Below are positions 1,582 to 64,000 of a DNA stretch of 64,000 nucleotides, in pieces. A model generated the notes under the pieces. It had not been told where the DNA came from and did no database searches. It saw only the letters and a program-made list of their open reading frames with translations. Position numbers and translations under genes: made by a program. This DNA comes from Deferribacter desulfuricans SSM1 (GTDB taxonomy: Bacteria; Chrysiogenota; Deferribacteres; Deferribacterales; Deferribacteraceae): assembly GCF_000010985.1 (NCBI RefSeq), contig NC_013939.1, positions 1,145,501 through 1,209,500 on the forward strand, read 5' to 3'. The first letter of the stretch is position 1. Each line of letters opens with the position of its first letter.

Positions 1582-1630
1582 TAAACTTTGAACGTTGAAC
1601 ATAGAACTTAGAACTTCGTAACTTATTACT
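1582..1630. repeat. Degenerate heptanucleotide tandem repeat
   Basis: Seven consecutive 7-bp units can be read on the plus strand: taaactt, tgaacgt, tgaacat, agaactt, agaactt, cgtaact, tattact. Two units are identical and the others share a GAAC or TAAC core in the same phase. The tract runs into the stop codon of the large MshQ-like gene (TAA at 1626-1628) and lies in the 3' flank of that transcript. No hairpin or U-tract accompanies it, so it is not an obvious terminator. Function unknown. Confidence 0.55.
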
Positions 1631-4600: not shown

Positions 4601-5813
4601 CCATATAGTTTCCGATCGTTTCATCTTTAGTAAAGTCAGTTGAGCTACCAATAATTGATAAAGCTCCATATGTTGCAATATTAACACTATATTCTTGTGA
4701 ATTTCCGTCAATGTATAATTTTGTTTTATCGTTTTCTACTTTTATAGCAAAAAAATGCCAGCCATCGCTTAAAGAAGGTAAATCAATTTCTTTTACATTA
4801 CCATTATTATCATAAACGGCAAATCTATAATTCCCATTATTATCTTTCATAAAAAAACCTATATCTCCAGTACCTTCAACACTCCCAATGATATAAACTT
4901 TATATCCTTGATAAGTATATTGACTTTGGCTTCCTATCAATGGGAATTTTAACCAAAATGTAGTTGTATAATTTGCAGGAAGTTGAAAGGGCTCATCAAT
5001 TGTAATGTATTTTCCATTGAAGTTTGCAACTCGGTAAATTCCTCCACCTGCAGTTATATTATCTATAACATTTGCATTATTTTGTGCAGTGGCATTATGG
5101 TTATTTCCACTACTATCTTTTACTTCACCAGGTGTTCCATCCCAGCTACATTCATCAAAGTAGTAGTCAGCAATTGGTTTTGGTAAGACTATAATATCAT
5201 TTATTGCTGCATAACCAAAATTACATTTAGATTTCGAACCACTAGATACATTTTGAGGTCCTGAACAGTTAAGTGAATTATTTTTATTCTGTTGGTACAC
5301 TACAGTATACGGAACATCTAATGAACCATCTCCATCATTGTCTATACAACTTACAATGACATTATTTACTTTTACAGTAGAATTGCCGTTTTTTTCAAAA
5401 TCACTACAGCTATCATGATCCACATCAATCCATGAGTCAAATATTCTTTGATTACTATCAAATGTTGCAACCGAGCATTGACCAGTTTGCAATCTAGGGT
5501 CATTATTATTTTCTCCTACAAAAAAACCAATATCATACCTTTCAGCTTTATTATCTTTTAGTGTTAATATTATATCAATTGATAATGATTGTCCTTCTAC
5601 ACAAGTAGTAGATTTTCCAGTTGTCAATATATCAACAATAGTTGTAAATTCACCAGCATTACAATTCAAATCTTGGTTAGTTCTTGAACCAGCACAAGTA
5701 AGATTATTAGCTGCAGTTACTTCGTAATCATATGAAAAAACATTGTTTAAGTTATAAATAAGCGAAAAAAGTACTATTAAAATCAATTTGAGTATAGGAA
5801 TATTTCTATTCAT
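1626..5813 (-). CDS. Very large secreted MshQ-like adhesin (LamG, lectin-like repeats, DUF6701)
   Basis: A 1395-residue exported protein with a signal peptide at 1-28. A LamG/concanavalin-like domain lies at about 215-440. Two related lectin-like units follow: one at about 450-560 (with REPPAVFVVIDKTGGH and GFDITIVEP), and a second Cys-containing one at about 660-770. The rest resembles the DUF6701 region of MSHA pilus protein MshQ, ending in RYGRLKIYDNYGPET, YWVLNTDD and the terminal ATFGIYRGRDIIIDW. MshQ proteins are surface- or pilus-associated and thought to aid attachment. No prepilin or MSHA assembly genes are nearby, so this one is an orphan. The sequence is rich in Asn, Asp and Thr. 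The start has a GGAG 5 bp upstream and overlaps a small upstream ORF by 8 bp. Adhesion is inferred from domains. Confidence 0.8.
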   Translation of the reverse strand: MNRNIPILKLILIVLFSLIYNLNNVFSYDYEVTAANNLTCAGSRTNQDLNCNAGEFTTIVDILTTGKSTTCVEGQSLSIDIILTLKDNKAERYDIGFFVGENNNDPRLQTGQCSVATFDSNQRIFDSWIDVDHDSCSDFEKNGNSTVKVNNVIVSCIDNDGDGSLDVPYTVVYQQNKNNSLNCSGPQNVSSGSKSKCNFGYAAINDIIVLPKPIADYYFDECSWDGTPGEVKDSSGNNHNATAQNNANVIDNITAGGGIYRVANFNGKYITIDEPFQLPANYTTTFWLKFPLIGSQSQYTYQGYKVYIIGSVEGTGDIGFFMKDNNGNYRFAVYDNNGNVKEIDLPSLSDGWHFFAIKVENDKTKLYIDGNSQEYSVNIATYGALSIIGSSTDFTKDETIGNYMDEFKIFDSLLTQNQIEAIYNNEKAGKNWDGTEREPINCTCTPEYDGIVTPIEFEGGRFTTTNTYNNKTWDHITFQKPFREPPAVFVVIDKTGGHAASARMKNITKTGFDITIVEPPGYDGPHISQSLSYLAINKGVHKLGNQYIEVGEINTKKVQGKYTPNGSIIGWEKVTTKVNFCDPAVVANIQTLNNLNSSDPQKQPPYKALIPWSTAVIDNITSNSFNLALDMSETNDGLINKDETVAYMVSEGNIQDSFVDDDNNTILYETIKTQPYFEGWSNNCNTVSFKNNYSKTPLIAGWKNSRKEDDGGWFRICSLDKNKVGFVVDEDKDHDSERSHIKESGSIFVFSDNFVKREIILDHYLIEHDGVGLTCQPEKVTIKACTDNATSCTEYTSTTDVTLNYNSTPQNYSFTGETKADVIHHDAGTITLSLTNMNPIATNGYKCYNTTTGLDSCDITFYDSGFIFDIKNTYSYKPQDVTIKAVRKDDQTQACVPAFQNTSLDINFTFDNLSANPTNTAPEIDNITLPNNITLNFDNNGAAIFNVVYKEAGKLSFTATYDNGTVYAVGSDTAVFKPFGFYVYTTDNNWQADNGANSTVFKKAGENFNLTVKAVGWQSDTDTDLSDNPVTKNYQENNIPVTHTLVAPSGGNNGTIGVTSLDFTNGITSIANQTFSEVGIIKFTVTDNDFLGAGSITGTSANIGRFIPDHFIIKSKTNGVLNDNGNFIYTGQTVTYLTKPEFIIEAQNKDNQTTKNYSGDFFKLDIGGISIIDPTTDDKTTGNDGNLLSVNINRAIATFTINNDGSATYTFGDDNITYIRDNNSKVAPFIPQLTFKINSIIDNDSVSGINLPDNISVTGSEMRYGRLKIYDNYGPETEDLELDIETQYWDGKYWVLNTDDSHYSLSINDFKLDNYTDKLNSGNSLIDNVTGISEGKGSLHLTTPGENNYGTVDICIDTSSIIYNYLNDNESCGTATFGIYRGRDIIIDWQEIPPQ

Positions 5814-49153: not shown

Positions 49154-49227
49154 CGGGGCGTGGCGCAGCTTGGTAGCGCACACGCATGGGGCGCGTGTGG
49201 TCGCTGGTTCAAATCCAGTCGCCCCGA
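49154..49227 (+). tRNA. tRNA-Pro (anticodon GGG)
   Basis: A 74-nt cloverleaf: acceptor CGGGGCG/CGCCCCG with discriminator A, D stem GCGC/GCGC, anticodon stem CACGC/GCGTG with loop ATGGGGC (anticodon GGG), and T arm GCTGG TTCAAAT CCAGT. It follows the MerR gene by 11 bp and may be co-transcribed. A tyrosine integrase remnant lies 44 bp downstream, so its 3' end is a plausible attachment site. Confidence 0.95.
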
Positions 49228-49612: not shown

Positions 49613-50392
49613 ATGAAAACAAGTGTTATATCTTTTGCAAATAAAAAAGGAGGAAGTGGTAAAACAACGATCACTTTAAATATTGGTGCAATTCTTGGAG
49701 ATAGAGGGTATCGCGTTTTATTGATAGATCTTGATCCTCAAGCTCATCTTTCTTATTGGAGTGGTGTAAATACTTACGATGAATACTTTTCAATTTATGA
49801 TTGTTTATTAGATAGATGTCCTATAAATAAAGCTGTATATACTCCAGAACATAATTTATTTGATATAATACCTGCTTCAAATAAATTTGATAAAGATGAC
49901 CTAAAAGTTTTACTTAATTTTACTAAACCAGAAAATAGGTTAAATCGTAAGCTTATGCTTTATAAGAAAAAGTATGACTTTGTTTTAATAGATACCCCTC
50001 CAACTTTCGCTTTAATGACATTAGGTGCTTTAATTGCTTCAGATTTTGTTATTATTCCAATCTTATTGAATTTTTTAGCTATAGAAGGACTTTCACAGTT
50101 GGTTCAAAATATTTACAAAATAAATTATTTATACAATCCCAAATTAAAAATTTTAGGAATTATACCTAATCAGTTCAATTTAAGAAGTAATCATGCTAAA
50201 AAAGTATTAGCTGAAATAAAAGAGAATTTTGATAATAAAATAATATTCCCAAAATTAAGAAATGATATTAAACTAGCAGAAGCCCCCGAGTTTAGATTAC
50301 CAATAAACTTGTATTCTAAAAAGAGTAAAGCTAATATGGATTTTAATCTAATGGTAGATTATATGTTAGATGTTCTTAATAATGAGGTATAA
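49613..50392 (+). CDS. ParA/MinD-like ATPase of the chemosensory cluster
   Basis: A 259-residue deviant Walker A ATPase. The signature KKGGSGKTTITLNIG is at about 11-25, LLIDLDPQAHLSYW is the A' motif, and VLIDTPP the Walker B. Soj/ParA proteins partition DNA, while chemotaxis-linked relatives (ParC type) position receptor arrays. No ParB is present, and the gene is 2 bp upstream of an Hsp70 gene in the chemosensory operon, so array or cluster positioning is the more likely role. The RBS is poor (TTTGGG just before ATG). It is first in the operon, right after the mobile-element scar. Confidence 0.85.
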   Translation: MKTSVISFANKKGGSGKTTITLNIGAILGDRGYRVLLIDLDPQAHLSYWSGVNTYDEYFSIYDCLLDRCPINKAVYTPEHNLFDIIPASNKFDKDDLKVLLNFTKPENRLNRKLMLYKKKYDFVLIDTPPTFALMTLGALIASDFVIIPILLNFLAIEGLSQLVQNIYKINYLYNPKLKILGIIPNQFNLRSNHAKKVLAEIKENFDNKIIFPKLRNDIKLAEAPEFRLPINLYSKKSKANMDFNLMVDYMLDVLNNEV

Positions 50393-50394
50393 AT

Positions 50395-51903
50395 ATGGGA
50401 AGTTATACTGTAGGCATCGATTTTGGAACTACAAACTCTTTAATTGCAATTTATCGTGATAAAGAGCAAGTTGAAGTCATCAATACTGATAGTGGAGATA
50501 AGTTTTTACCATCAGTTGTGTACTTTAAAAATGAAAAAGAAGTTATTGTTGGTAATAACGCTAAAGCTGTTGAAGTTATTGAACCTGAATTTACCATATC
50601 AAATGTTAAAAGGTTTTTAGGTAGTGACAAAACATATAAAATTTATGATATGGAGTTTTTACCTGAAGATATTGCATATTTTATCTTTAAAAAGTTAAAA
50701 ACTGTTTTTGATGAATTTGCTGGTTCAAACAATAAGGTTAACGCAGTTGTTACTGTTCCAGCATATTTCGATCATCTGCAGAGGGAGTCGGTTAGAGTTG
50801 CAGCTGAAAAAGCTGGTTTTAATGTTTTATTGTTAGTAAATGAACCTACAGCAGCTTTCATATATTACGATAATATATACAATCTTGATAAAGGAAATTA
50901 TTTTGTATTTGATTTAGGAGGAGGAACATTAGATATAAGTTTAGTTGAATCTGATGAGCATTTTTGTAAGGTTTTATCATCTGTAGGTTCTACAGATATA
51001 GGTGGAATAGATTTTGATATTTGTCTAGCAGATTATTTTGTGAAACAGTTTTTAGATAAATATGATATTAATTTAAAAGAAGATAAAGTTGCTTATCAAC
51101 AACTTATTTTACAATCTGAAAGGGCTAAAAAAGAACTGTCAAATTTAAAAGAAATTAATGTGGTGATACCTTACATAACGCAAACCAAAAATGGTGTTTT
51201 GCATTTTAAGGAACTTATTACTCGAGAACAGTTTAAATCTATTTCAAAAAACATATTGAAAAAAATTGAACAAATACTAAATAAATTTAAAGAAGAAAAT
51301 GAGGAATATCTAAAAGAAGTTTATAATGTTCTGTTAGTAGGTGGTGGGTCAAGGTTATTTTTAATGGAAGATTTTTTGAATAATCACTTAAAGAAAGCGG
51401 TTAGAAAAAATTTAAATCCGGAAGAAGCTGTAGTTAAAGGAGCTGCTTTAATTGCTGCCATGTTATCTGGAAAACTAGAAAAAAAAGAGTTTTATGATGT
51501 GACTACCCATAATTTGGGTGTTGAGGATGATGAAGGAAATTTTGAAATTATTATTAAGAAAAATGAAATTTATCCGATAAAAACAAGTAAGGTATTTACA
51601 AACAGTATAGATAATATTGAGGAAATTGTTGTGCATGTTTTACAAGATATGGCTATAACAACATTAAATGAATCTATATCAATAAAAGACAATCCTGACA
51701 ACTTTGTAAGTTTAGGTCAGTTTTCAATGGAAATTGATAAAAATTTAAAAGCAGGAGACGCAAACTTAGAGATAATTTTTAATATTGATAGTAATGGAAT
51801 AATTTCTATTAAAGCAAAAGATTTAAATAGAAATATTGAAAAGGATTTTATTTTGAAAAAAACTATTAATAATCCGAATCTTGAAACAATTGATGTGTTA
51901 TAA
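50395..51903 (+). CDS. Hsp70/DnaK-like protein lacking the helical lid
   Basis: A 502-residue Hsp70. The nucleotide-binding domain (about 1-365) has GIDFGTTNSLIAIY, FDLGGGTLDISLVE and VLLVGGGSRLFLMEDFL. A short linker with DVTTHNLGVED aligns with the DnaK DVTPLSLG segment and is followed by a beta substrate-binding domain (about 380-490). The C-terminal alpha lid and tail of DnaK (about 130 residues) are absent. Lidless forms resemble HscC-like or specialised Hsp70s. Wedged between ParA and the receptor, it may chaperone or remodel the array, or act as an actin-like switch. No DnaJ or GrpE is nearby. Function inferred from context only. Confidence 0.85.
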   Translation: MGSYTVGIDFGTTNSLIAIYRDKEQVEVINTDSGDKFLPSVVYFKNEKEVIVGNNAKAVEVIEPEFTISNVKRFLGSDKTYKIYDMEFLPEDIAYFIFKKLKTVFDEFAGSNNKVNAVVTVPAYFDHLQRESVRVAAEKAGFNVLLLVNEPTAAFIYYDNIYNLDKGNYFVFDLGGGTLDISLVESDEHFCKVLSSVGSTDIGGIDFDICLADYFVKQFLDKYDINLKEDKVAYQQLILQSERAKKELSNLKEINVVIPYITQTKNGVLHFKELITREQFKSISKNILKKIEQILNKFKEENEEYLKEVYNVLLVGGGSRLFLMEDFLNNHLKKAVRKNLNPEEAVVKGAALIAAMLSGKLEKKEFYDVTTHNLGVEDDEGNFEIIIKKNEIYPIKTSKVFTNSIDNIEEIVVHVLQDMAITTLNESISIKDNPDNFVSLGQFSMEIDKNLKAGDANLEIIFNIDSNGIISIKAKDLNRNIEKDFILKKTINNPNLETIDVL

Positions 51904-51945
51904 TAAAGTCTTAGAAATTAATGTTTGTTAAGGGAGGTAAATAAT

Positions 51946-53886
51946 ATGAAAAAGTTGGCTCAGCCGAAAGATAAGAGAACTGGTATTATTAGAAAGACCA
52001 ATGTGAAAAAAACTGATGATGTTACGCAAAAAGATGCTAAAAAAATTGCACAAGAAAAAGCTAAAGCAAGAGTATTAGCAAGGCAACAACAGTTAGCTGA
52101 AAGAATTGCAACTGCCACAGAACAGCTATCTGCAGCGGTTGAAGAATCACTTGCTGCAGCAGAACAACTATTAAAAAACATGGAGCAGATTGCAGCAGGC
52201 GCAGAAGAAGCAAGTGGTGCTTGTGAGGAAGCTAGGTCAGGCACCATTCAAATTGATAAATCAATTAATGTTGTAGTCGATAAAGCTGAAAATATAATAA
52301 CAAGTATAGATGATAATCAAAAAATGCTTACAACTGCAATAAATAGCGTTCAAGAACTAATTAACGGAATTAATGAAAGTGTTGAAGCAGGGGAGGAAAC
52401 TGTTCAAATCATAAATGAGTTAAACAGTAAATCAGATGAAATTGGTAATATTGTTCAAGCAGTTGTTAGAATTGCTGATCAAACAAATTTGCTGGCATTA
52501 AATGCTGCAATAGAGGCTGCAAGAGCTGGTGAGCATGGTAAAGGTTTTGCTGTTGTGGCGGATGAGGTGAGAAATTTGGCTGAAGTATCTGGTAAAAGTG
52601 CAAATGAAATAAAGGATGTCGTTAGTAGTATACAAGATTTTGTAAAAGAGATTGTTAAGGAAATTAATGAATCTGGAAATATTGCACAATCAATGTCAAA
52701 GGATGGTGAGTCTGTTGCAGTTTCATTAAATGAATTAGTAACTGCATTTCAAGAAATGATTAATTCTGGTGAGAAATTAAAAAAGGTTGCCGAGGACTTA
52801 AAGGTTAATTCTAAAAAAATGTTAGAGATGATGGAGCAGGTTGCAACTGCTTCAGAGCAAATCTCTGCAGCATGTGAGGAATCAAGAAAAGCAGCAGAAG
52901 AGCAGGTAAAAGCTTTTGAAGAGATTTCTATTGCAACAAATGAATTAGCAGAGATGGCTGATGATTTAAAAAACTCTACAGATGCAAATAAATCATCTGA
53001 TGAGCTTGTTGCAGCTGCTCATCAATTGTCTGCAAATATAGAAGAGGCTGCGGCTGCTGCAGAAGAAATGGCAGAAGGTATTAGTCAAATTAAAGAAGGT
53101 GCTGAAATTCAAGCAGATACTGTAGATGATGCCTTAGAAGTTACGGAAAAAGCTTTAGAAAGTCTAAAACAAGCAAAAAATGATGCGGAGGAGTTAATAA
53201 AAAATATTCAAGAAAGCACATCATTATTAGATGAAAATTATAAAAAAATAATTAGTTTAGAGGAAGGATTAGAGAAATTTACAGGTATTAATGATAACGC
53301 ATTAAAGAAGATAAAAGATTTAGAAAAGTATACTAAAAAAATTGATAAAATAGTTGATTCGATTTCTGTTGTAACAATTCAAACAAATATGTTAGCCGTA
53401 AGTGGTTCTATAGAAGCTGCAAGAGCAGGTGAGTATGGAAAGGGTTTCTCTGTTGTCGCTAGCGATATAAGAGTGTTAGCTAATGAGTCTGCAGAGAATG
53501 CTGATAAAATTAAAGATATGGTGAAAGAATTACAAGAGCAAGTTTCTTTGAGCTTATACAATGTTGACAAGTCAACAGAAACTGCTAAAAATGAGGTCGA
53601 AAAAGCAAAAACTACTAATGGATTATTAAAAAATAGTTCAGAATCCTTAAATGCTCTATCAGATGTTGCTATTGAAATTGAAAAATTAGTTGAACAATCT
53701 GTAACTGCAATGGAACAAGCTAAAGTGGGTGTAGAGCAAATTGGTTCTGGTGCTGAAGAATCAGCTCAAGCTGTTGCCGAAGCAGCTTCAGCTTCAGAAC
53801 AGCAAGCTAAGGGGCTTGAAGAATTATCTAATGCAATAGAGGAAATAACAAGTATAGCTGAAGAAATGCAAACAGATATTATTTAA
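51946..53886 (+). CDS. Soluble chemoreceptor with two tandem MCP signalling domains
   Basis: A 646-residue almost entirely helical protein with no signal peptide, membrane helix or sensor domain. A Lys/Arg-rich head (1-50) is followed by two complete methyl-accepting signalling hairpins. The tip [20 protein letters not shown] begins at 179, and [20 protein letters not shown] at 479, exactly 300 residues apart. The flanks repeat in the same register ([12 protein letters not shown] near 57, [12 protein letters not shown] near 357). Tips bind CheA and CheW, and Glu/Gln pairs along the arms are candidate methylation sites for the CheR and CheB encoded here. The start at 51946 follows GGGAGG; the frame is open to 51925. 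A receptor without input domain implies sensing by a partner, perhaps Hsp70, ParA, STAS or HEAT. Confidence 0.9.
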
Positions 53887-53918
53887 AAAAGTGCCAAGTA
53901 TCTTAAACAGGAGGCTTT

Positions 53919-55424
53919 ATGCCAAATATCGCAAATCAAGTTGTTACTTTTAGCATAAAAAATGAAATTTTTGGATTAAATGCTGATTATATTGATAGTA
54001 TAGTTCGAATACCTGAATATACGAAAGTGCCTAAAACATCAAAAGAGTTATTAGGGATATCTAATTTGAGAGGGGATGTTGTTCCTATAATTGATCTAGC
54101 TTTGAAATTGGGATATGATGAACCTGTTGAGATTGGTGAAAATTCCAGAGCTATTATTTTAGATTATAAAGGAGAAAAAGCTGCTTTAACTGTAGATGAA
54201 ATGAAATCTGTTCTTAATCAAGAAGATTATGAAACTGAAGATTTACCTCCAACTATGAGTTCTAATGTCGATAAAAAATATATTAGTGGTGTCTTAAAAA
54301 TAAAACAAAATGATATGTTAGTACAATTACTTGATATTGAAAATATGATGGAATTAAATTATGTTGAAGATAGTAAAAGTGATGGTTCCTTTAAACATCA
54401 AGATCAAAAATATTTAGATGAGTCAAATCAGGCTCAGGTTGAAGAAGAAAAATTTATAAGTTTTATTGTAGATGATGTAGAGTATGCTGTAAAGGTTCAG
54501 CAGATTAGAGAAATTTTGAGATATCAAGAAATAAGCGAGGTGCCTGGTTTACAAGATTATGTTTTAGGCATATTTCCTTTAAGAAACGAGATAATACCTG
54601 TTATTTCGGCAAGAAAACTTTTTAAAAAAAGTTGTATTGATATAACAGAAGATGCAAGAATTGTAATCCTTGAGATTAAAAACTTTAAAATTGGGTTATT
54701 AGTTGATAAGGTAAATGAAGTTTTATCAGTAGAAAAAAGTTTTATTGAGGATTTATCAACATTATTTAACTCTTCCGAGTCAAGAGAAATAAATGGTGTT
54801 ATTAAGCTTGATGAAGGGAAACAAATTATTCTAATACTCAATTCAGAAAAGATTTTTAATGAAGATGAGTTATCTGATATTGTGGGTAAAGTTGTAGAGA
54901 AACAAGAAACAGGAGAAGATAATATGGAAAAGGATTTTAATGAAACAGATGAAATTGTACAAATTGTTACTTTTAAAGTTGATGAAGAGTATTATGGATT
55001 TCCTATAGAAATGGTACAAGAAATAAATAGATTCACTAATGTTACTAAAGTGCCTAAAACTCCAAAGTTTGTTGAAGGGATAATTAATCTTAGAGGAGAA
55101 GTTATCCCTCTTGTTGATATTCGCAAAAGATTTGATTTAGAAGAAAAAGAAAGAGATGAATTTACTAGATTAATTATTGTTAATTTTGATGATTTAAAAG
55201 TTGGTTTTATAGTAGATTCTGTAGAGGAAGTATTAAGAATTAATAAAAATAAGATAGATGATGTGCCAGCCGTTTTATCAGCATCTGTTGATACCGAATT
55301 TATAACAAATGTTATTAATATTGATCAAGACAAGATGGTAATGATATTAGATGCTAAAAAAATGTTTAGTGATGATGAGTATAAAAAATTAGAAAAAATC
55401 AGAGGGAAAGAAAAGAAAGATTAA
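53919..55424 (+). CDS. Triple-domain CheW scaffold protein
   Basis: A 501-residue protein made of three CheW domains (about 5-150, 170-320 and 345-490). Domain 1 has LLGISNLRGDVVPIIDL, domain 2 YVLGIFPLRNEIIPVISA and domain 3 FVEGIINLRGEVIPLVDIRK. The NLRG motif is kept in 1 and 3 and altered to PLRN in 2. CheW couples receptors to CheA; three linked domains could make rings or lattice links by themselves. Usual CheW has a single domain of about 150 residues. It follows the receptor gene by 32 bp with an AGGAGG RBS. Confidence 0.9.
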   Translation: MPNIANQVVTFSIKNEIFGLNADYIDSIVRIPEYTKVPKTSKELLGISNLRGDVVPIIDLALKLGYDEPVEIGENSRAIILDYKGEKAALTVDEMKSVLNQEDYETEDLPPTMSSNVDKKYISGVLKIKQNDMLVQLLDIENMMELNYVEDSKSDGSFKHQDQKYLDESNQAQVEEEKFISFIVDDVEYAVKVQQIREILRYQEISEVPGLQDYVLGIFPLRNEIIPVISARKLFKKSCIDITEDARIVILEIKNFKIGLLVDKVNEVLSVEKSFIEDLSTLFNSSESREINGVIKLDEGKQIILILNSEKIFNEDELSDIVGKVVEKQETGEDNMEKDFNETDEIVQIVTFKVDEEYYGFPIEMVQEINRFTNVTKVPKTPKFVEGIINLRGEVIPLVDIRKRFDLEEKERDEFTRLIIVNFDDLKVGFIVDSVEEVLRINKNKIDDVPAVLSASVDTEFITNVINIDQDKMVMILDAKKMFSDDEYKKLEKIRGKEKKD

Positions 55425-55463
55425 TAACAAATATTTAGTGTTAACAAATAGAGAGAGGGATAA

Positions 55464-56522
55464 ATGTCAAAAATAAAAGTATTGGTTGTTGATGATTCTG
55501 CTTTAATGAGAAAAAGAATTAAGGAAATGCTTGAGAGTGATCCAAAAATAGAGGTTATAGGGTTAGCAAGAAATGGTGAAGATGCAATAAAAAAGGCGAA
55601 AGAATTATCTCCTGATGTAATTACATTAGATGTTAATATGCCTGTAATGGACGGACTGACAGCTTTAAAATTGATTGTTGAAGAAGAAATATGTCCTGTA
55701 ATTATGGTTAGTTCTTTGACTCAGAAAGATGCTGAAATCACTTTTAAGGCTTTAGAACTTGGAGCTTTTGACTTTGTACCAAAGCCAGGGGGGACTATAT
55801 CTTTAAACATTGATCAGATTAGAGATGATTTAATTAGAAAAGTTAAAGCAGCTGTTAAAGGAAAGTTTAAAACGTTAAAACGTTCTGTTGATAGAAAAAA
55901 AACTATAAAAAGAAGAATTACAAGAAGAAAAGAAAACGAATCTGGTTTTAAAGCAATTTGTATAGGTATATCTACTGGAGGGCCAAAAACAATTTTCGAT
56001 GTTTTACCATATTTGCCTAAAGATATAAATGCAGCTATTTTTTTAGTGCAGCATATGCCTCCAGGATTTACTGCATCTTTTGCTAAAAGACTTGATAATT
56101 ATTGTGAGATAAAAGTTAAAGAAGCTGAGGCAGGAGATATTGTTGAGCCAGGAATTTGCTATTTAGGTAAGGGAGGCTACCACTTAACTCTTTTTCAAAG
56201 GCTTAATAAAGATATAATTTTAAGGTTGCCAACGAAACCAGAACACCTTTTTATGCCGAGTGTAGATGTGATGATGGATTCAGTTGTTAAAATTTTTCAA
56301 TCTAATACTATTGGCGTTTTAATGACTGGGATGGGGGATGATGGAGCTGAAGGGATGGTAAAAATAAAAAATGCTGGAGGATATACAATAGCAGAAAGTG
56401 AAGAAACAGCTGTGGTTTTTGGAATGCCTGCAGAAGCAATTAAAAGGGGAGGAGCTGATATTGTATTACCAAGTTATGAAATTGCTAATGAGATTTTGAG
56501 AGTATTGGAAGAAGGATGGTAA
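55464..56522 (+). CDS. cheB: Chemotaxis protein-glutamate methylesterase/deamidase
   Basis: A 352-residue response regulator. The receiver domain (1-125) has D10/D11 and phospho-acceptor D56 (TLDVNMPVMDG) and ends with FVPKPGG. A Lys/Arg-rich linker (about 126-158, with RSVDRKKTIKRRITRRK) leads to the methylesterase domain with Ser170 in IGISTGGPK, His197 in VQHMPPGF and Asp292 in TGMGDDGAEGM. It removes methyl groups from receptor glutamates when phosphorylated by CheA. Encoded with CheR, so the system has full adaptation. Confidence 0.95.
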   Translation: MSKIKVLVVDDSALMRKRIKEMLESDPKIEVIGLARNGEDAIKKAKELSPDVITLDVNMPVMDGLTALKLIVEEEICPVIMVSSLTQKDAEITFKALELGAFDFVPKPGGTISLNIDQIRDDLIRKVKAAVKGKFKTLKRSVDRKKTIKRRITRRKENESGFKAICIGISTGGPKTIFDVLPYLPKDINAAIFLVQHMPPGFTASFAKRLDNYCEIKVKEAEAGDIVEPGICYLGKGGYHLTLFQRLNKDIILRLPTKPEHLFMPSVDVMMDSVVKIFQSNTIGVLMTGMGDDGAEGMVKIKNAGGYTIAESEETAVVFGMPAEAIKRGGADIVLPSYEIANEILRVLEEGW

Positions 56523-56543
56523 AATTATAATAGAGGTGATTCT

Positions 56544-56861
56544 ATGAAAGTTGAGCAACTGAAAACGAAAATAAAAGTCATCTTTCCAGAAGAATGTGAA
56601 ATATTTTCAGTTGAAGAATCAAAAAATGAGCTTATAACTATTTTTGACAGTGGTGAATACAAGGAAAAGCTTGTAGAAATAGATTTAAGTAAAGTTGAAA
56701 GTATAGATACAACTTTTTTCCAGCTTATTTTAAGTTTTATCAAGACACTAAAAAATGAAGAAGTTAAATATAAAGTTAAAAGTGTTTCTGAAAGAGTTCA
56801 GCAAGTTTTTGAACTATATGGTGTTAAGTTAGATATATTTTTAGGGGGATATGATGGCTAA
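56544..56861 (+). CDS. STAS domain protein
   Basis: A 105-residue single-domain protein of the anti-sigma-factor-antagonist fold. IDLSKVESIDTTFFQLILSFI matches the segment that in SpoIIAA holds the phosphorylated Ser; here Thr occupies that place. Members transmit signals by partner switching, and some are linked to receptor arrays. No anti-sigma kinase is encoded nearby, so the partner is unknown. It overlaps the CheY gene by 8 bp and follows cheB by 21 bp with an AGAGGTG RBS. Confidence 0.75.
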   Translation: MKVEQLKTKIKVIFPEECEIFSVEESKNELITIFDSGEYKEKLVEIDLSKVESIDTTFFQLILSFIKTLKNEEVKYKVKSVSERVQQVFELYGVKLDIFLGGYDG

Positions 56862-57222
56862 GAAGATATTAGTAATAGATGATGCTGTTACAATGAGGCA
56901 ACTAGTTTCAGCTACTCTAAAGTCTGCTGGTTTTGATGTTGTAGATGCATCCAATGGCAAAGAAGCTTTAATGAAATTAGAAAAAGATAGATTTAACTTG
57001 ATAATTACAGATCTCAATATGCCAATTATGGATGGTATTACTTTTATAAAAGAGGTTAAAAAAAATCCGAAGTATAGACTTATACCTATTATTATGCTTA
57101 CAACTGAGTCAGGAGCTGATAAAAAAGAAGAAGGTAGAAAAGCTGGAGCAAAAGCATGGATAGTTAAACCTTTTAAACCAAATGATTTATTAACTGTAGT
57201 AAAAAAGATTTTACCTTTTTGA
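56854..57222 (+). CDS. cheY: CheY-like response regulator (first copy)
   Basis: A 122-residue receiver domain. The acidic pair D9/D10 (LVIDDAVTMRQ), phospho-acceptor D53 (TDLNMPIMDG), the Thr of MLTTES and Lys of IVKPFKP are all present. Single-domain proteins of this type carry the signal from CheA to an output such as a motor, or act as phosphate sinks. The start is 56854, the second of two adjacent ATGs, because GGGGG lies five bases before it. Two CheY proteins flank the HEAT and CheR genes. Confidence 0.93.
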   Translation: MAKKILVIDDAVTMRQLVSATLKSAGFDVVDASNGKEALMKLEKDRFNLIITDLNMPIMDGITFIKEVKKNPKYRLIPIIMLTTESGADKKEEGRKAGAKAWIVKPFKPNDLLTVVKKILPF

Positions 57223-57254
57223 TATAAATGAATTAAGATAGCTTGGGAGGATAT

Positions 57255-58325
57255 ATGGATTCTAACGACATAAAAAAGTATCTTAAAAGTAAAGATGAAG
57301 AAGAAAAATTGTTTGCGCTAAATGATATTATGTCTCAGAGTTTATCTGAATTTATTCCAGATATAATTGATTTAATAGAAAATGATGAGTCTCAAATTGT
57401 CAGGGAAACTGCAGTCGATGTTCTAAAAAATATTGATATAAGCTCTTATTACGATAACATATCTAAAATGTTCGAGTCTCCTGATGCTTATGTAAGAAAT
57501 GCAGCTATTGAGATATTTGGTGCTAAAGGTGAAGAAGTTGTTCCTTATTTAACCTCTATCATGGATCATAAAAATAAAGAAGTTAGAAAGCTTATACTTG
57601 ATAGTCTTGTTGCTACAGGTTCTGAATATGCTTATCCAGCTTTAGAAGCTGCTTTAAACGATCCTGCTCCTAATGTAAAGATTACTGCTGTTGAGTATAT
57701 AGGTGCTTTACAATATACAAAAGGTAAGGAAAAAATAATGGAGATACTTTTACAGGCTGATGAACCTATGTTACAAATTGCTTGTCTTGAAACATTATCA
57801 ATTATTGGGGATAAAGAGGTTTTAAATCAAATTTTAAATTATTTTGATGTGGAGAAAGGTAATATTGAAAATTTTTATAAGCCATTTATATTTAAAATGA
57901 TTGGTTATTATGGTGATTGTTGTTATCTTGAAATTTTATTAAAGTATTTAAATTATAAAAATCTTTCTTTTATTAAAGAGATTTTAAGCGCTTTAAATAA
58001 ATTAATGGCTAGATGCAAAATAAAAAGTTTAGAAAAAGAGGTTATAAGTTTTCTTAAAAAAATTGTAACAAGTGATAGTAATGATATAGAAACAAAAATA
58101 GAAACTATAACTATTTTGTCATTGATAGATTTTGATGGTAAAGAGGAACTTTTTGAATCTTTATGCGACAGTAATGAAACAGAGCTACTTTCAATTGTCT
58201 TTGATACATATTTTAAAATTAATAAAGATAAAGCTATAAACATATTAAATAAAAAAATAAAAGTTTCTACTGGAGAAGTTAAAGAAGCTTTAATAAATAT
58301 AAAAGAGGAATTAATAGGTGAGTAA
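57255..58325 (+). CDS. HEAT-repeat protein of the chemosensory cluster
   Basis: A 356-residue all-helical protein. At least five HEAT-like repeats are visible between about 20 and 200, for example SQIVRETAVDVLKNI, AYVRNAAIEIFGAKG, KEVRKLILDSLVATG and PNVKITAVEYIGALQ. The C-terminal third is more divergent but still helical. HEAT solenoids bind proteins and are known additions to some non-flagellar chemosensory clusters. It probably acts as an adaptor. The start follows GGGAGG; the frame is open to 57243. It lies 2 bp before cheR. Confidence 0.85.
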   Translation: MDSNDIKKYLKSKDEEEKLFALNDIMSQSLSEFIPDIIDLIENDESQIVRETAVDVLKNIDISSYYDNISKMFESPDAYVRNAAIEIFGAKGEEVVPYLTSIMDHKNKEVRKLILDSLVATGSEYAYPALEAALNDPAPNVKITAVEYIGALQYTKGKEKIMEILLQADEPMLQIACLETLSIIGDKEVLNQILNYFDVEKGNIENFYKPFIFKMIGYYGDCCYLEILLKYLNYKNLSFIKEILSALNKLMARCKIKSLEKEVISFLKKIVTSDSNDIETKIETITILSLIDFDGKEELFESLCDSNETELLSIVFDTYFKINKDKAINILNKKIKVSTGEVKEALINIKEELIGE

Positions 58326-58327
58326 AG

Positions 58328-59161
58328 ATGATAGCGGTATCAACAACTGAGTTAAAAGATCTTATAAATTTAATCTATAAAAAAACAGGGATTAAGTTTG
58401 AAGAGAAAAAACTATATTTTATTTCAAAAAGGCTTGAAAAAAGAATGGAAGCAACAGGTTGTGAAACAGTCAGAGAATATATTAGATACCTAAAATTTAG
58501 AGATAAAAGTGGAGATGAGTTTCAAGAATTAATGAATTTATTAACTATCAATGAAACATATTTTTTTAGAGAATTTCCTACACTTCAAGCTTTCGCTGAA
58601 CATTGCTTACCAAGAGTCATTGAAAATAAAAAAAAGACTGGTAGTAACAAAATTAGAATATGGTCAGCTGGTTGTTCAACTGGAGAAGAACCTTATACAT
58701 TAGCAATTATTTGTAAAGAAATGATAGATGATTTTGATGAATGGGATGTAAATATACTTGCTACAGATATAGATAGGAATGCTCTAGCAAAAGCAAAACT
58801 AGGTAGATATAGCGATAGAAGTGTTAGTAAAGTCCCTGAAGAATATTATGAAAAATATTTTTATTATGACAATGGTAGTCACTGCGTGGTGGATGAGATT
58901 AAAAAATTAGTTACTTTTGAGCACTTAAACTTAATGGATAGTGTGAATTTGAGAAAAAAAAAGGGGTTCGATTTTATCTTTTGTAGGAATGTGCTTATAT
59001 ATTTTGATGATATTTCTAGAAGGCAGGTTGTTAACCATTTTTATATGGCATTAAATAAAGGTGGCTACATTTTCTTAGGACATAGTGAATCAGTTGGTAG
59101 AATAACAACTGCTTTTAAGTTAAAAAAATATGGGGAACATCTTGTTTATGTTAAGGAGTGA
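58328..59161 (+). CDS. cheR: Chemotaxis protein methyltransferase
   Basis: A 277-residue enzyme that methylates receptor glutamates with S-adenosylmethionine. A small N-terminal helical domain (about 1-80) ends in NLLTINETYFFRE. The SAM domain has IRIWSAGCSTGEEPYTLAI, NILATDIDRNALAKA and FDFIFCRNVLIYFDD. Normal length with no TPR extension. The RBS GGTGAG lies within the 3' end of the HEAT gene. Paired with cheB for adaptation of the tandem receptor. Confidence 0.95.
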   Translation: MIAVSTTELKDLINLIYKKTGIKFEEKKLYFISKRLEKRMEATGCETVREYIRYLKFRDKSGDEFQELMNLLTINETYFFREFPTLQAFAEHCLPRVIENKKKTGSNKIRIWSAGCSTGEEPYTLAIICKEMIDDFDEWDVNILATDIDRNALAKAKLGRYSDRSVSKVPEEYYEKYFYYDNGSHCVVDEIKKLVTFEHLNLMDSVNLRKKKGFDFIFCRNVLIYFDDISRRQVVNHFYMALNKGGYIFLGHSESVGRITTAFKLKKYGEHLVYVKE

Positions 59162-59164
59162 AAT

Positions 59165-59533
59165 ATGAAAATAAAAATATTGGTTGTTGATGACTCTGAC
59201 TTAGTAAGGCATTTTCACTCAAATATTCTTAGAGCAAGCGGTTTTGAAACAGATACTGCTGTTGATGGTATGGATGCGCTTGAAAAAGCATTGAGCAATA
59301 ACTATTCTCTGATTTTATCTGATTTAAACATGCCAAGAATGGATGGGTTAACTTTTATTAAAGAATTGAGAAAAGCTGATAATGAAACTCCAGTTATTAT
59401 TATCACAACACAGGAAGAAAATGAAAATAGAATTGCTGGACTTAAAGCAGGTGCAAATCTCTATATAGTTAAACCAGTAAAGCCACAGGACTTGATAACC
59501 AATGTCAAGATGCTTTTGGGAATATTGTCATAA
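59165..59533 (+). CDS. CheY-like response regulator (second copy)
   Basis: A 122-residue receiver domain with D9/D10 (VVDDSDLVRHF), phospho-acceptor D53 (LSDLNMPRMDG), the Thr of IITTQE and Lys in IVKPVKP. It is clearly distinct from the first copy. It lies 3 bp after cheR and 53 bp before cheA. One copy may be the output and the other a phosphate sink, but the sequence does not say which. Confidence 0.92.
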   Translation: MKIKILVVDDSDLVRHFHSNILRASGFETDTAVDGMDALEKALSNNYSLILSDLNMPRMDGLTFIKELRKADNETPVIIITTQEENENRIAGLKAGANLYIVKPVKPQDLITNVKMLLGILS

Positions 59534-59586
59534 TGTTAGTTAATTTTGAGCTGATACTGACTGTTTTGACTTATTAGGAGGTAGTT

Positions 59587-62460
59587 ATGAGTGAATTTAA
59601 TATGGAAGAATATGCGAAAGCATTTTTAGAAGAAGCTACCGAGCTACTGGAGCAAGCAAATGAGGATGTTTTGAAAATAGAAAGCAGTCCAGATGATGAA
59701 ACTCTAAACTCTCTATTTAGAGCAATACACACAATAAAAGGAAGTGCTGGTGGTTTTGGTTTTGATGAAATATCAGAATTTAGTCATCATATAGAAACAT
59801 TACTTGATAAACTAAGAGCTCATGAGTTAGATGTATCCCCTGATATTATAGATATTATTTTGGAAGGCTTAGATATAATAACTGAAATGGTAAATGCAGC
59901 AAGATCTGGAAATAAATATGAATTTGATTCAAATGAAATTATAGATAAAATAAATAAAATTATAAATAATGAAAACAGTACTAAAGTAAACAATTCTAAT
60001 ACTCAGATTAAAAATAAAGAAACCGTTATCGATTTGACAATAGATGAAGTTGCTGATGGTGATATTAAAGAGTGGTTATTATCTAATAAAAGCTTGAGTG
60101 ATATTTGCTACAAAGTTATTTTAAACATTGATAATGATTTCTTAGAAAATGGTTATGATCCTCTTGCATTTTTATATAATTTAAAAAACGAGTCTAAAGA
60201 ATTTTATGTAAAGACTGATATTAGTAAAATACCTGAATTAAGAGAATTAGAGCCTTTAAATTTGTATGTTAATCCTGAAATATATGTTTTTACTGATTTA
60301 AATAAAAATGAAATTAAAGAGTTGTTTTTTGATCCAAACTTCGTAGATATTAAAACTATTTTGTTAAAATCATCTACTGCAACAAAAATAAAAAAAGATG
60401 ATTATGTAGATTATGAAGGATTGGATAATGATTCGCTTAAAGAACTTCTTGATAGTTTTGAAGATTATCTATCTTCAATAGAACATATTATTGTTGAACT
60501 AGAAAAAGAAAAAATATTGGATAAACAAAAGGTTAATGAGCTTTTTAGAATTTTCCATAACATTAAAGGTGATGCGGGCTATGTTGGTTTTAAGTTTATT
60601 GAAAGATATGCTCATATGATTGAAAATGTCTTAGATAAGGTAAGAAATGAAGAATTAACGTTTGATGAAAAAGCATCCGACTTGATTTTAAGAGCGATTG
60701 ACGAAATTAAATTAGTATTAAATAGTGCAATAGAAAATACACAAGTTTTAATACCTGCAAATTACAAATATCTAGAAAGGCTTTTTAATGCTATTGAAGA
60801 AGGTGATAGTAAACCTACTAATGTGGAAGGAGTTGATATATTTTTACAACAGACTGAACAAATGATGGAAATTATAGAGATTGCAACAGAAGGCGAACAT
60901 ATAGATAAAAAAATGTTATTAAGGGGGGTTAACGGTTTAAAAAATGCAGCAAAATTTATGAAATTTGATGATTTAGTCAAAATTATAGAGAATTTGGAAA
61001 ATAATTTAAACGAAGGTAAAAATATCGAGGAAGATTTGGAAGCTATAAAAAACTATATTGATAAATTGAGTTCCCCACCTAAAAAAATTGGGGAAATTTT
61101 AGTTGATGAAGGAATAATAAAGGAAGAGGATCTTAAAGATGCACTTCAAGAACAAAAACCACTAGGCGAGATACTGATTGAAAAAGGGAAAGTCGATAAA
61201 GATGCTGTAGAACTTGCCTTGAAAAAGCAAAAAATTATGGAAAAAAGTTATAGCAAAAAAGTTGAAGAAAATATAGTTAATCAAAAACACTTTGAATCAA
61301 AAACAATGAAAATAGACCAAACAAAAATAGATAAGTTTACAAACACAATTGGGGAGATGATAGTTGCTAAAAATAGTTATGAATACTTAGTCAATAGACT
61401 TGCTACAAATTATAATTTACCTACTAGTGTTATTAAAGAGTTTAAAGATAATGTTTATTTAATATCAAGGATAGCGCAAGATCTTCAATCTGATATTATG
61501 TCGTTAAGAATGGTTCCAGTAAAACAAATTTTCCAAAAGTTTCCAAGAGTTGTTAGGGATATTTCTAGAAAACATGGCAAAAAGATAGAGTTGTTAATAG
61601 TTGGTGAAGAAACAGAAATAGATAAGAAAATAGCTGATATGTTAAATGACCCTTTGATACATATAGTTAGAAATGCTTGCGATCATGGTATTGAAACACC
61701 AGAGGAAAGAGTTGCTAAAAATAAACCGGAAGAAGGCACACTGGTTTTAAAAGCTTTTCAAGAAGGCAGTTTTGTATATATAGAAATTAGTGATGATGGT
61801 AGAGGTATTGATAAGGATAAAGTTTATAATAAAGCTCTTGAGAAAGGAACTATCTCTCCAGATGATGAATTAACAGATGATCAAATTATAAATCTAATTT
61901 TTCACCCAGGCTTTTCTACAGCTGATAAAGTAACTGATGTTTCAGGTCGTGGAGTAGGTATGGATGTAGTTAAAACATCCATAGAATCACTAGGTGGTAA
62001 TATTGATATTAAAACGAAAAAAGATGAAGGTACAAGAATAATATTAAAAATACCTATGACAATAGGAGTATCAACAGCATTATTAATAGAAAATAATGGT
62101 GAGCAGTATGCAATACCTATAGAAGATATTATAGAAACATTAAAAGTTACAGCAGAAGATATAAAGAATTTGCATTATGGATATGGAATTTATTATAGAA
62201 ATCATGTTTTACCAATTTATTCTTTATCAGAAATATTAGGCGAAGAAAAAAAAGAATTTGATGGAGAAATTAGTATTATTGTGCTAAAAACTGATAGTGG
62301 ACAGTTTGGTTTGGTTGTGGATAATTATAACAACATAATTGATATTGCTGTTAAGCCAACACCTAAGTATCTTTCAAACTTATCTTATATTGGAGGTATT
62401 ACCATTTTAGGTAGTGGTAAAGCAGTAATATTATTAAATCCTAACAAATTATTTGTCTAA
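59587..62460 (+). CDS. cheA: Multi-HPt CheA sensor kinase
   Basis: A 957-residue kinase. HPt1 (1-120) has H48 in AIHTIKGSAGG. A P2-like region follows (about 150-265). HPt2 (280-385) has H324 in RIFHNIKGDAG. A third HPt-like bundle (about 415-490) has Asn449 where His is expected (GVNGLKNAAKF). Two short repeats with GEILVDEGIIKEEDL and GEILIEKGKVDKDAV lie at 500-550. The dimerisation helices, the ATPase domain (HIVRNACDHG, SDDGRGID, GRGVGMDVV) and a C-terminal CheW-like domain (about 825-957) complete it. It phosphorylates the CheY and CheB proteins. E. coli CheA has one HPt and 654 residues. The AGGAGG RBS is strong. Confidence 0.93.
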   Translation: MSEFNMEEYAKAFLEEATELLEQANEDVLKIESSPDDETLNSLFRAIHTIKGSAGGFGFDEISEFSHHIETLLDKLRAHELDVSPDIIDIILEGLDIITEMVNAARSGNKYEFDSNEIIDKINKIINNENSTKVNNSNTQIKNKETVIDLTIDEVADGDIKEWLLSNKSLSDICYKVILNIDNDFLENGYDPLAFLYNLKNESKEFYVKTDISKIPELRELEPLNLYVNPEIYVFTDLNKNEIKELFFDPNFVDIKTILLKSSTATKIKKDDYVDYEGLDNDSLKELLDSFEDYLSSIEHIIVELEKEKILDKQKVNELFRIFHNIKGDAGYVGFKFIERYAHMIENVLDKVRNEELTFDEKASDLILRAIDEIKLVLNSAIENTQVLIPANYKYLERLFNAIEEGDSKPTNVEGVDIFLQQTEQMMEIIEIATEGEHIDKKMLLRGVNGLKNAAKFMKFDDLVKIIENLENNLNEGKNIEEDLEAIKNYIDKLSSPPKKIGEILVDEGIIKEEDLKDALQEQKPLGEILIEKGKVDKDAVELALKKQKIMEKSYSKKVEENIVNQKHFESKTMKIDQTKIDKFTNTIGEMIVAKNSYEYLVNRLATNYNLPTSVIKEFKDNVYLISRIAQDLQSDIMSLRMVPVKQIFQKFPRVVRDISRKHGKKIELLIVGEETEIDKKIADMLNDPLIHIVRNACDHGIETPEERVAKNKPEEGTLVLKAFQEGSFVYIEISDDGRGIDKDKVYNKALEKGTISPDDELTDDQIINLIFHPGFSTADKVTDVSGRGVGMDVVKTSIESLGGNIDIKTKKDEGTRIILKIPMTIGVSTALLIENNGEQYAIPIEDIIETLKVTAEDIKNLHYGYGIYYRNHVLPIYSLSEILGEEKKEFDGEISIIVLKTDSGQFGLVVDNYNNIIDIAVKPTPKYLSNLSYIGGITILGSGKAVILLNPNKLFV

Positions 62461-62510
62461 GTGTTGTATAAGAGTTGGATGAAAAAGTTGTTATAAAAAT
62501 AGTGGGAAAG

Positions 62511-63986
62511 TTAGAAGAATTCAACTGAAGAGAGGTCTTCGTCATCAGCTTTTATAATAGTTAATTCAGTATTATTATATGCATCGATAAATTCTTGTGA
62601 TTGTTTTATAGATTCAGGTAAGGTTTTGTCCATATTATCAAACTCTTCTTTAACTATATTAATCATATTTTCAATATTTTCTATGATTTTCGATTTAAAA
62701 TTACTAATCAGTTCATAATAATCTTTATTAGTAAGTAGGTTTTTGATATTATTAACACTATTTGTTAATTCATTATTATTGTTTACTAAACTATCAAATT
62801 TTTCTCCGAAATTTATCCCTTTAAAACTATTGTACTTTTCTTTACTTTCCGTAATAATTCCATTTAAATCATTTATCAAAATTTGCCATAGGTTAATTGT
62901 ATCTGTTAATTTTTGAATAAGTTCTTGTAATTTATTGTAAGTTTTGTTCATAGAATCTATCAAACTGTTTAGCGATGTCTCTCCAATTCTAGCAACCTCT
63001 ATAGCTGAAATCACAATAAGTACATTGAATGATTTACTAAACTTTTTTAATTCAAATATGTTATTTTCTGTAATTGTTAATGTGTTTTGTATCGAAATGA
63101 TATTCTCATAAATTTCATCAATAATATTCGATATATAAGCTCCTTCCTTTTCTATCTCTTTAAATATTGACTCAGAGATGGATGTTTTGCTTATAACATT
63201 TTGTATATCAGTGTTTATATTATAAACATACAGTTTTATTTCATTACTAATTTCATCAAGTATATTTTCTAAATCGTTTTTTATATTTTCTAAAATACCT
63301 AATATTTCTTTAAGAAGTTTAAATTTTTTCCCTAAATAACTTTTATCTTGGTTATCTTCATCTTTTATGCTATTTAAAGCTTCTTCTATTTTTGCAATTT
63401 GTTGGATATAAATATCATGAAATTGAGAGTATTCAACTAGCTTTGAAATACTTGCACTAAAGCCAATTGAACTGCTATTATCTAAAGTTGATTTATTAAT
63501 ATGTTCAAAATTGTTTTTGATTCTTAATTTTTGTATGGTTTCTCGAAAGTTTTTATATATATTATTAAAATTATTACTAATCTCATTTAATAAAGATTTT
63601 GCTTTATCAGAGTGTTTTTTTATTTCTTTGCTTAAATATGCTATGGTTGCTCCCTTTTCACCTAAACTATAAGTTTTACAAATAGTATTATATGACAATA
63701 TTTCTAAGTCGTCAGTGATTGAAATAAAAGTCGATGTTGCATGTTCTATATCAGATTTTAATTGGTCTATATTGATGTCGCTGATTTTTTTATTAAACGT
63801 AGATTTTATGTTTTCTATCATTGAAACAGTATCAGATAAAAAAGTATTTATCTTTGAGTTAATAAAATTATCTGTATCTATAACCCTTTGAAAATGAACT
63901 TGATCAAGATTGATGAGATCAGTTATTATCTCAATAATTTCTTGAAAAAGTATATCTAAATTATTTTTTATGGCTTGAAAATCCAT
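62511..63986 (-). CDS. Coiled-coil protein with a degenerate chemoreceptor hairpin
   Basis: A 491-residue, nearly all-helical cytoplasmic protein without membrane span. Around 325-350, SFNVLIVISAIEVARIGETS aligns with the chemoreceptor tip ([19 protein letters not shown] in the tandem receptor), but the following GKGFSVVA segment is replaced. Long heptad arms flank it, rich in Asn, Ile and Glu. It may be a divergent receptor, or a CheA/CheW-binding decoy. The end, DEDLSSVEFF, does not match a CheR tether pentapeptide. It is convergent with cheA, 50 bp apart with no terminator, so antisense overlap is possible. The start at 63986 has an AAAGG RBS, so the gene is complete. Confidence 0.65.
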   Translation of the reverse strand: MDFQAIKNNLDILFQEIIEIITDLINLDQVHFQRVIDTDNFINSKINTFLSDTVSMIENIKSTFNKKISDINIDQLKSDIEHATSTFISITDDLEILSYNTICKTYSLGEKGATIAYLSKEIKKHSDKAKSLLNEISNNFNNIYKNFRETIQKLRIKNNFEHINKSTLDNSSSIGFSASISKLVEYSQFHDIYIQQIAKIEEALNSIKDEDNQDKSYLGKKFKLLKEILGILENIKNDLENILDEISNEIKLYVYNINTDIQNVISKTSISESIFKEIEKEGAYISNIIDEIYENIISIQNTLTITENNIFELKKFSKSFNVLIVISAIEVARIGETSLNSLIDSMNKTYNKLQELIQKLTDTINLWQILINDLNGIITESKEKYNSFKGINFGEKFDSLVNNNNELTNSVNNIKNLLTNKDYYELISNFKSKIIENIENMINIVKEEFDNMDKTLPESIKQSQEFIDAYNNTELTIIKADDEDLSSVEFF

Positions 63987-64000
63987 TTATAAAGCCTTTT

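Follow-up and report, generated by a model that had tools for sequence, protein, structure and literature searches.

The 64,000-nucleotide stretch of the Deferribacter desulfuricans SSM1 genome analysed here (the window; C1:1145501-1209500 of a 2,542,933-base, two-contig genome) carries eleven genes on a single strand, 49613-62460 (+), that almost certainly encode a chemosensory system of class F9 and whose products very probably form an F9-type cytoplasmic array. Two features mark this class: DosM, a receptor that carries a tandem pair of signalling domains, and a protein of three concatenated CheW domains, here termed CheW3 (PMC9321776, PMC7534058). The cluster encodes a soluble receptor with tandem signalling domains, a protein with three CheW stretches and a full set of CheA, CheB, CheR and CheY, and the genome contains a second chemosensory class, one of its six CheA loci lying within a FliM/FliN/CheZ-type locus. 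The original prediction, made from the DNA alone, recognised no named chemosensory class in this composition, a view that the presence of both published hallmarks does not support. The F9 class is already known; the added ParA, Hsp70, STAS and cyclic di-GMP (c-di-GMP)-sensor-like parts are features of a variant. In Vibrio cholerae, the F9 proteins build a flat, two-layered cytoplasmic array in which DosM spans both layers (PMC9321776, PMC7534058), and, judged from the genes alone, a double-layered cytoplasmic array is highly likely here as well. We propose that DosM would be rod-shaped, its two signalling tips at opposite ends, joining two CheA/CheW3 baseplates into a soluble double-layered array, and that CheR and CheB would adapt it.

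Operon structure, conservation and class

The open reading frames, coordinates and Pfam identities of the eleven genes in tight array were confirmed. Intergenic gaps range from -11 to +53 bp, and the operon is likely to be read as one transcript; the likely true starts of DosM and of the HEAT gene are at 51946 and 57255. As had been predicted for the core enzymes, catalytic residues are intact, being kept in CheY, CheB, CheR and the Hpt1 (H48) and Hpt2 (H324) domains of CheA, and also in ParA and the nucleotide-binding domain (NBD) of Hsp70; a third Hpt domain of CheA lacks the histidine, and neither a P2 nor a receiver domain was detected in CheA. No membrane span was found in any operon protein, again in agreement with the prediction; ParA has the single hydrophobic peak, which we take to be the core strand of that protein. 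Control by sigma-28 was rejected: no such promoter was found in the window for the operon or for the convergent gene for a 491-residue protein, and the genome-wide count was about that of the control (5 versus 3).

The order of all eleven genes is the same in ten species of one family within the taxonomic order of the host and, because it is identical in these ten relatives, is shared far beyond chance. Of 51 Deferribacterota genomes, 12 have an orthologue of the HEAT protein, namely this one and 11 of the 12 sampled members of the relatives' family. The orthologue, and the whole system, is missing from some near relatives: G001, which belongs to the same genus as the host, and G034, a member of that family. 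The distribution is thus patchy, matching the published F9 pattern.

To gather loci from further afield, a CheB-family scan of genome contigs was followed by phylum and class searches and then by neighbourhood retrieval, which gave 66 DosM-CheW3 clusters. DosM, CheW3 and CheB are contiguous in all 66, and the core order recurs from alphaproteobacteria to Firmicutes; annotated examples lie on plasmids of Methylosinus trichosporium OB3b and Sphaerotilus sulfidivorans. HEAT is present in at least 35 of the loci, ParA in at least 41 and Hsp70 in at least 28, these counts being lower bounds on account of contig ends. ParA is common in che operons generally (37% of 206 species; PMC2829493). Since HEAT recurs with this gene order and ParA is common in che operons, these two are not the unusual part of the cluster; Hsp70, the STAS-CheY pair and the module of a receiver and a helical protein are. 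The STAS and CheY1 genes overlap and are kept together, at another position, in one further cluster (L095); an invariant DT occupies the canonical Ser position of the STAS domain.

In a quick tree, the CheA of the operon falls outside the clade of Thermotoga maritima F1, Escherichia coli F7 and the host's own flagellar CheA, with Shimodaira-Hasegawa-like approximate likelihood ratio test (SH-aLRT) support of 99. It lies near the CheAs of other DosM-CheW3 clusters, yet these do not form one clade. What tells against the F9 assignment is the choice of references in this tree, which holds those three CheAs and none from V. cholerae F9 or from the alternative cellular function (ACF) and type IV pilus (Tfp) classes. 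The original prediction would have been undone by a CheA within a well-described flagellar class together with accessory genes absent from close relatives; the CheA does not group with the flagellar proteins in the tree, yet the system is absent from G001 and G034. One might still see here an ordinary flagellar che cluster beside unrelated neighbour genes, since none of the five core Che proteins is missing and the F classes are nominally flagellar. We consider this very improbable: the eleven-gene order is the same in ten relatives, CheA stands outside the flagellar clade, and CheA, CheZ and FliM/FliN-like genes are found together at another locus of the genome.

The receptor, Hsp70 and proposed positioning by ParA

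The proposed rod-like form of DosM finds a counterpart in the spacing of its two signalling tips. They stand 300 residues apart in 40 proteins, that of the window among them, and 301 residues apart in three; with an insert, as in 18 proteins, the distance is 402 or 403. A single unbroken helix of 300 residues would set the baseplates up to about 45 nm apart, against a measured 35 nm in V. cholerae. The AlphaFold2 model of the window's DosM (predicted local distance difference test score, pLDDT, 88.9) consists of two long helices, 24-343 and 348-645, whose only interruption, at 344-347, falls close to 150 residues past tip 1, and of an N-terminal tail (residues ~1-23/24) that is disordered, with pLDDT below 50. 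The ten relatives (L055-L064) carry an insert at the DosM midpoint (e.g. L064:4256-6496 (+)), which in the three proteins tested is a zinc-binding CZB domain (Pfam 9e-11 to 5e-13); the window's DosM has no insert. The claim that no receptor has a ligand domain therefore stands for the DosM of the window and fails for these relatives. CZB domains have been described as redox and zinc sensors (PMC6715182, PMC13370339). As the DosM type is reported to be without sensory domains in 98% of cases (PMC9321776), the midpoint CZB domain of the relatives represents an input in a receptor type that mostly lacks one. The DosM of the window is closer to insert-free proteins from Thermodesulfobacterium and an unclassified metagenome-assembled genome (48-49% identity) than to those of the ten relatives (33-41%), unlike its ParA, Hsp70, CheW3, CheA and HEAT proteins, which score best with the relatives. 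The receptor of the window may have been swapped, or that of the relatives may have changed fast.

Residues 5-490 of the Hsp70 align to DnaK 4-473, which comprise the NBD and the beta part of the substrate-binding domain (SBD-beta). Because the alignment stops there and the protein ends at 502 residues, the lid is missing; the ATPase residues are invariant. In all but one of the 28 Hsp70-bearing clusters its gene is the immediate 5' neighbour of DosM (27 of all 66 loci). A TG(I/L) peptide with basic flanks is found in the DosM tail at 23 of 25 loci with Hsp70 versus 1 of 34 without. Of the exceptions with Hsp70, L100 has a truncated reading frame and L138 reads TRITVK. The only locus that keeps the peptide without Hsp70, L184, has in its cluster a remnant of the Hsp70 C-terminus, 49 residues long, and on another contig a broken copy, which makes the loss a recent one.

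We stress that the association, strong by count, rests on few independent events. On the CheB tree, Hsp70 was gained once and lost three times, and several points therefore weigh against a functional reading of the match: the link amounts to about four independent events, kinship among the loci inflates its Fisher p, and for a formal test of Hsp70 and the tail peptide by independent pairs the events were too few. There is a real chance, short of even, that Hsp70 is an ordinary folding helper for a long coiled coil, or a hitchhiker in a ParA-TPR-Hsp70 block, and takes no part in regulating the array. Its independent gains and losses are few, as this would have it, and ParA, TPR and Hsp70 are jointly missing in L184 and L104; L170 and L171, however, keep ParA and TPR without Hsp70, these two and L104 have also lost the tail peptide, and the position directly 5' of DosM in all but one of the Hsp70-bearing loci also speaks for a closer tie. 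That Hsp70 acts on the DosM tail is a suggestion we make tentatively. In the mechanism that we propose, Hsp70 would most likely bind the TG(I/L) peptide in the disordered, basic N-terminal tail, which should emerge near the mid-plane of the array, and would use ATP to gate the assembly or occupancy of DosM. Of the two proposed tuning partners, Hsp70 thus has indirect support, from its adjacency to the receptor and the tail peptide, and STAS has only the conserved STAS-CheY gene pair. Should the link hold, it would provide a direct example of a chaperone that works as a standing component of a chemosensory array.

The operon encodes a ParA homologue with an intact Walker A motif, as expected of a positioning system of the PpfA type. 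The ParA homologues of che operons occur in company with cytoplasmic receptors (PMC2829493); PpfA, for its part, acts via the N-terminus of the receptor TlpT (PMC5706961). By analogy with PpfA-TlpT, ParA would space the soluble array and partition it over the nucleoid; we regard its positioning of the array as probable, and a cytoplasmic array with a ParA positioner, as first suggested, is the best reading by homology (PMC5706961, PMC3964821). Two observations count against a simple pairing of ParA with the receptor. All the F9 DosM tails measured are basic, with net charges between +5 and +12, and because this holds equally where no ParA was found, the tail does not single out ParA. Many clusters outside Deferribacterota, moreover, have beside ParA a small TPR protein that is a rival partner. 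Dependence of the tail on ParA was rejected, as the correlation fails, and since the charge is the same with or without ParA, contacts of the tail with ParA, with DNA or with both are possible.

The TPR gene stands between ParA and Hsp70 or DosM, for example at L096:5603-6040 (+), L100:4270-4665 (+) and L107:4436-4804 (+), and the N-terminus of its product in Syntrophomonas (KNLGMGLDALL) resembles the ParA-contacting start of ParB. It is conceivable, though we lean away from it, that the basic tail binds nucleoid DNA directly and that ParA works through another partner or on something else. The charge of the tail at loci with and without ParA, the TPR partner in other phyla and the precedent of FrzCD (PMC5716589) are consistent with this. 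The Deferribacterota clusters, however, yielded no TPR gene, which leaves DosM as the obvious local partner of ParA, and in PpfA-TlpT it is a receptor N-terminus that goes with a ParA (PMC5706961).

Possible second-messenger input and output, and the convergent module

Residues 500-548 of CheA, just before the dimerisation domain, match the MshE-related c-di-GMP-binding family NCBIfam NF053729 with 45.6 bits (cut-off 38). The model also scores above its cut-off in six of eight further F9 clusters tested (L055, L064, L096, L098, L100 and both CheAs of L105), just below it in L058, and does not match in L112. An MshEN-type receptor consists of two 24-residue motifs with a 5-residue spacer. Both motifs and both Gln residues are present in the CheA of the window; two departures weigh against binding, namely a spacer of 1 residue versus 5 and the replacement of the first Arg by K or M. 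Eighteen GGDEF genes or domains are found in the genome. The fusion of an MshE-type domain to CheA has been noted earlier (PMC5013675), and no link of such fusions to F9 was found in the literature examined. CheA may receive c-di-GMP input through the predicted motif, a proposal that we hold as plausible but short of probable. Separately, the F9 cluster L105:13452-20355 (+) has two CheA genes on either side of a gene for a HEAT-receiver fusion; both carry MshE-type motifs, in one of them as two matched stretches.

Output would pass through CheY1, which is paired with STAS, through CheY2 and, in Deferribacterota, through an additional response regulator, RR3; most plausibly it would bias flagellar motility in low-energy or stress states. 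FlhA is present in 19 of 20 other host genomes, including the single Aminicenantes host, in whose class 10 of 142 genomes have it, and the published figure is 97% (PMC9321776). Host flagellation favours a role in motility, weakly. The inference is weak because chemosensory hosts are usually flagellated, which makes 19 of 20 poor evidence on output, and because F9 of V. cholerae is without a known motility phenotype (PMC7534058), both of which count against a flagellar role; we put the chance of a flagellar output at about even. A non-flagellar output, such as surface growth, matrix or c-di-GMP-linked behaviour, similar to Dif/StkA in Myxococcus, is the less favoured possibility. It would accord with the V. 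cholerae phenotype, with the MshE-type motif in CheA and with the Myxococcus Hsp70 StkA, which acts upstream of the Dif pathway in exopolysaccharide (EPS) control (PMC4319316). It would accord, too, with the absence of any recognised flagellar gene in or beside the cluster, which agrees with the earlier claim; an inspection by eye of the remaining window showed none either. The surroundings of the operon held no recognisable matrix genes, however, and the flagellated hosts, that of Aminicenantes included, argue for the flagellar alternative. Taken jointly, the most specific form of our proposal, in which a dedicated lidless Hsp70 reads the tail peptide near the mid-plane and uses ATP to gate array assembly or kinase output, ParA sees to partitioning and CheA is tuned by direct action of c-di-GMP, is unlikely to hold in every part.

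The convergent gene at the end of the cluster had been described as receptor-like, a description that profile searches do not bear out: Pfam MCPsignal gives E values of 0.26-0.64 and hhalign to the receptor family a probability of 1.6%, and a methyl-accepting chemotaxis protein (MCP) was rejected. Its product, 491 residues long, is all-helical (AlphaFold2 pLDDT 77) and belongs to a conserved family with an invariant SQFHDIxxQ block (residues 187-196) and an invariant C-terminal SS(V/I)(E/D)FF (480-491). Foldseek returned all-helical matches, including the soluble chemoreceptor 3g67, none of them significant. The SQFHDIxxQ block resembles the EFQDIxxQ motif of CheZ, but there is no profile homology to CheZ, and a CheZ-type phosphatase was rejected (hhalign probability 0.97%, only the short F(Q/H)DIxxQ motif in common). 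With RR3 the gene forms one module, which follows CheA in the ten relatives; there RR3 and a gene for 490 residues are co-directional with CheA, and in this genome they are inverted. The complete RR3 gene is at C1:1209461-1209853 (-), 5' of the 491-residue gene on the same strand.

The coordinates are collected in Table 1. A tRNA-Pro(ggg) gene lies directly upstream of the operon (window 49154-49227 (+)); in L055-L057 and L064 a tRNA-Arg(cct) gene is found at the same end of the cluster, and the flanks otherwise differ. Elsewhere in the window, 1626-5813 (-) encodes a putative surface protein of 1395 residues that, judged by eye, is similar to MSHA-type (MshQ-like) adhesins and has a LamG-like part. 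Just downstream of the window, L065:4018-8616 (-) holds a row of hybrid kinase, CheR-like and CheD-like genes, apart from the F9 operon.

Table 1. Features of the F9 cluster, with positions in the window unless a genome is named
Feature	Position	Strand	Evidence
ParA/PpfA-like ATPase, Walker A KKGGSGKT	49613..50392	+	Pfam AAA_31 3e-47; Walker A invariant in 11 orthologues
Hsp70, lidless, NBD + SBD-beta, 502 aa	50395..51903	+	Pfam 7e-105
DosM-type soluble receptor, two signalling domains	51946..53886	+	MCPsignal 2e-65, two modules
RTGIIRK peptide in disordered N-terminal tail of DosM, candidate Hsp70-binding site	51976..51996	+	
CheW3, three concatenated CheW domains	53919..55424	+	Pfam CheW 1.2e-98, 3 stretches
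CheB, receiver + methylesterase, S170, H197, D292	55464..56522	+	Pfam 3e-61
STAS-domain protein, 11 bp overlap with CheY1 gene	56544..56861	+	Pfam STAS 5.7e-8
CheY1, paired with STAS	56851..57222	+	Pfam 1.7e-28
HEAT-repeat protein	57255..58325	+	Pfam HEAT_2 1e-25
CheR methyltransferase	58328..59161	+	Pfam 1.3e-61
CheY2	59165..59533	+	Pfam 1.6e-31
CheA: Hpt1 (H48), Hpt2 (H324), degenerate third Hpt, P3-P4-P5	59587..62460	+	
Predicted MshE-related c-di-GMP-binding motif pair, CheA residues 500-548	61084..61230	+	NCBIfam NF053729
491-aa all-helical protein (formerly 'receptor-like'), convergent on CheA	62511..63986	-	
RR3, extra receiver, 130 aa; 3' end only in window	63961..64000 (last 40 bases of window)	-	Pfam Response_reg 1.3e-8
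Hsp70 remnant of L184	genome G615, C32:17209-17355		Cluster without ParA-TPR-Hsp70 block

Comparison with known systems

F9 arrays are known from imaging in V. cholerae, and the operon offers three handles on their input, output and positioning: ParA for partitioning, Hsp70 with its matched receptor peptide, and the c-di-GMP motif in the kinase. V. cholerae cluster I (F9; DosM VC1403, CheW3 VC1402) shares with it the soluble receptor with tandem signalling domains, the triple CheW and CheA, CheB, CheR and CheY; compared by description only, it differs in that its descriptions mention no ParA, Hsp70, STAS or MshE-type motif (PMC7534058, PMC9321776). On plasmid pOB3b_01 of Methylosinus trichosporium OB3b (P3C36_RS21820-RS21780), MCP, CheW, CheB, HEAT, CheR, response regulator and CheA genes stand in the same order together with ParA; there, however, ParA comes after CheA, no Hsp70 or STAS is annotated and the cluster is plasmid-borne. 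The alpha and beta che clusters of Geobacter likewise lie away from flagellar genes and have accessory genes, but we rejected them as the same system as they lack mcp genes (PMC2577667).

For single parts of the variant, the closest parallels lie in other systems. CheOp3 of Rhodobacter sphaeroides has a cytoplasmic array placed by the ParA homologue PpfA via the N-terminus of its receptor (PMC5706961, PMC3964821), although TlpT is described as a coiled coil of the classical MCP type, CheA is divided between CheA3 and CheA4 (PMC10782961) and no Hsp70 is described. In Myxococcus xanthus, the Hsp70 StkA is genetically upstream of the Dif chemosensory pathway and, unlike the Hsp70 of the operon, is encoded in a separate stk locus (PMC4319316). 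FrzCD of the same species is not described as a tandem receptor, and its tail binds DNA directly; it resembles DosM in being a cytoplasmic chemoreceptor whose N-terminal tail is positively charged (PMC5716589).

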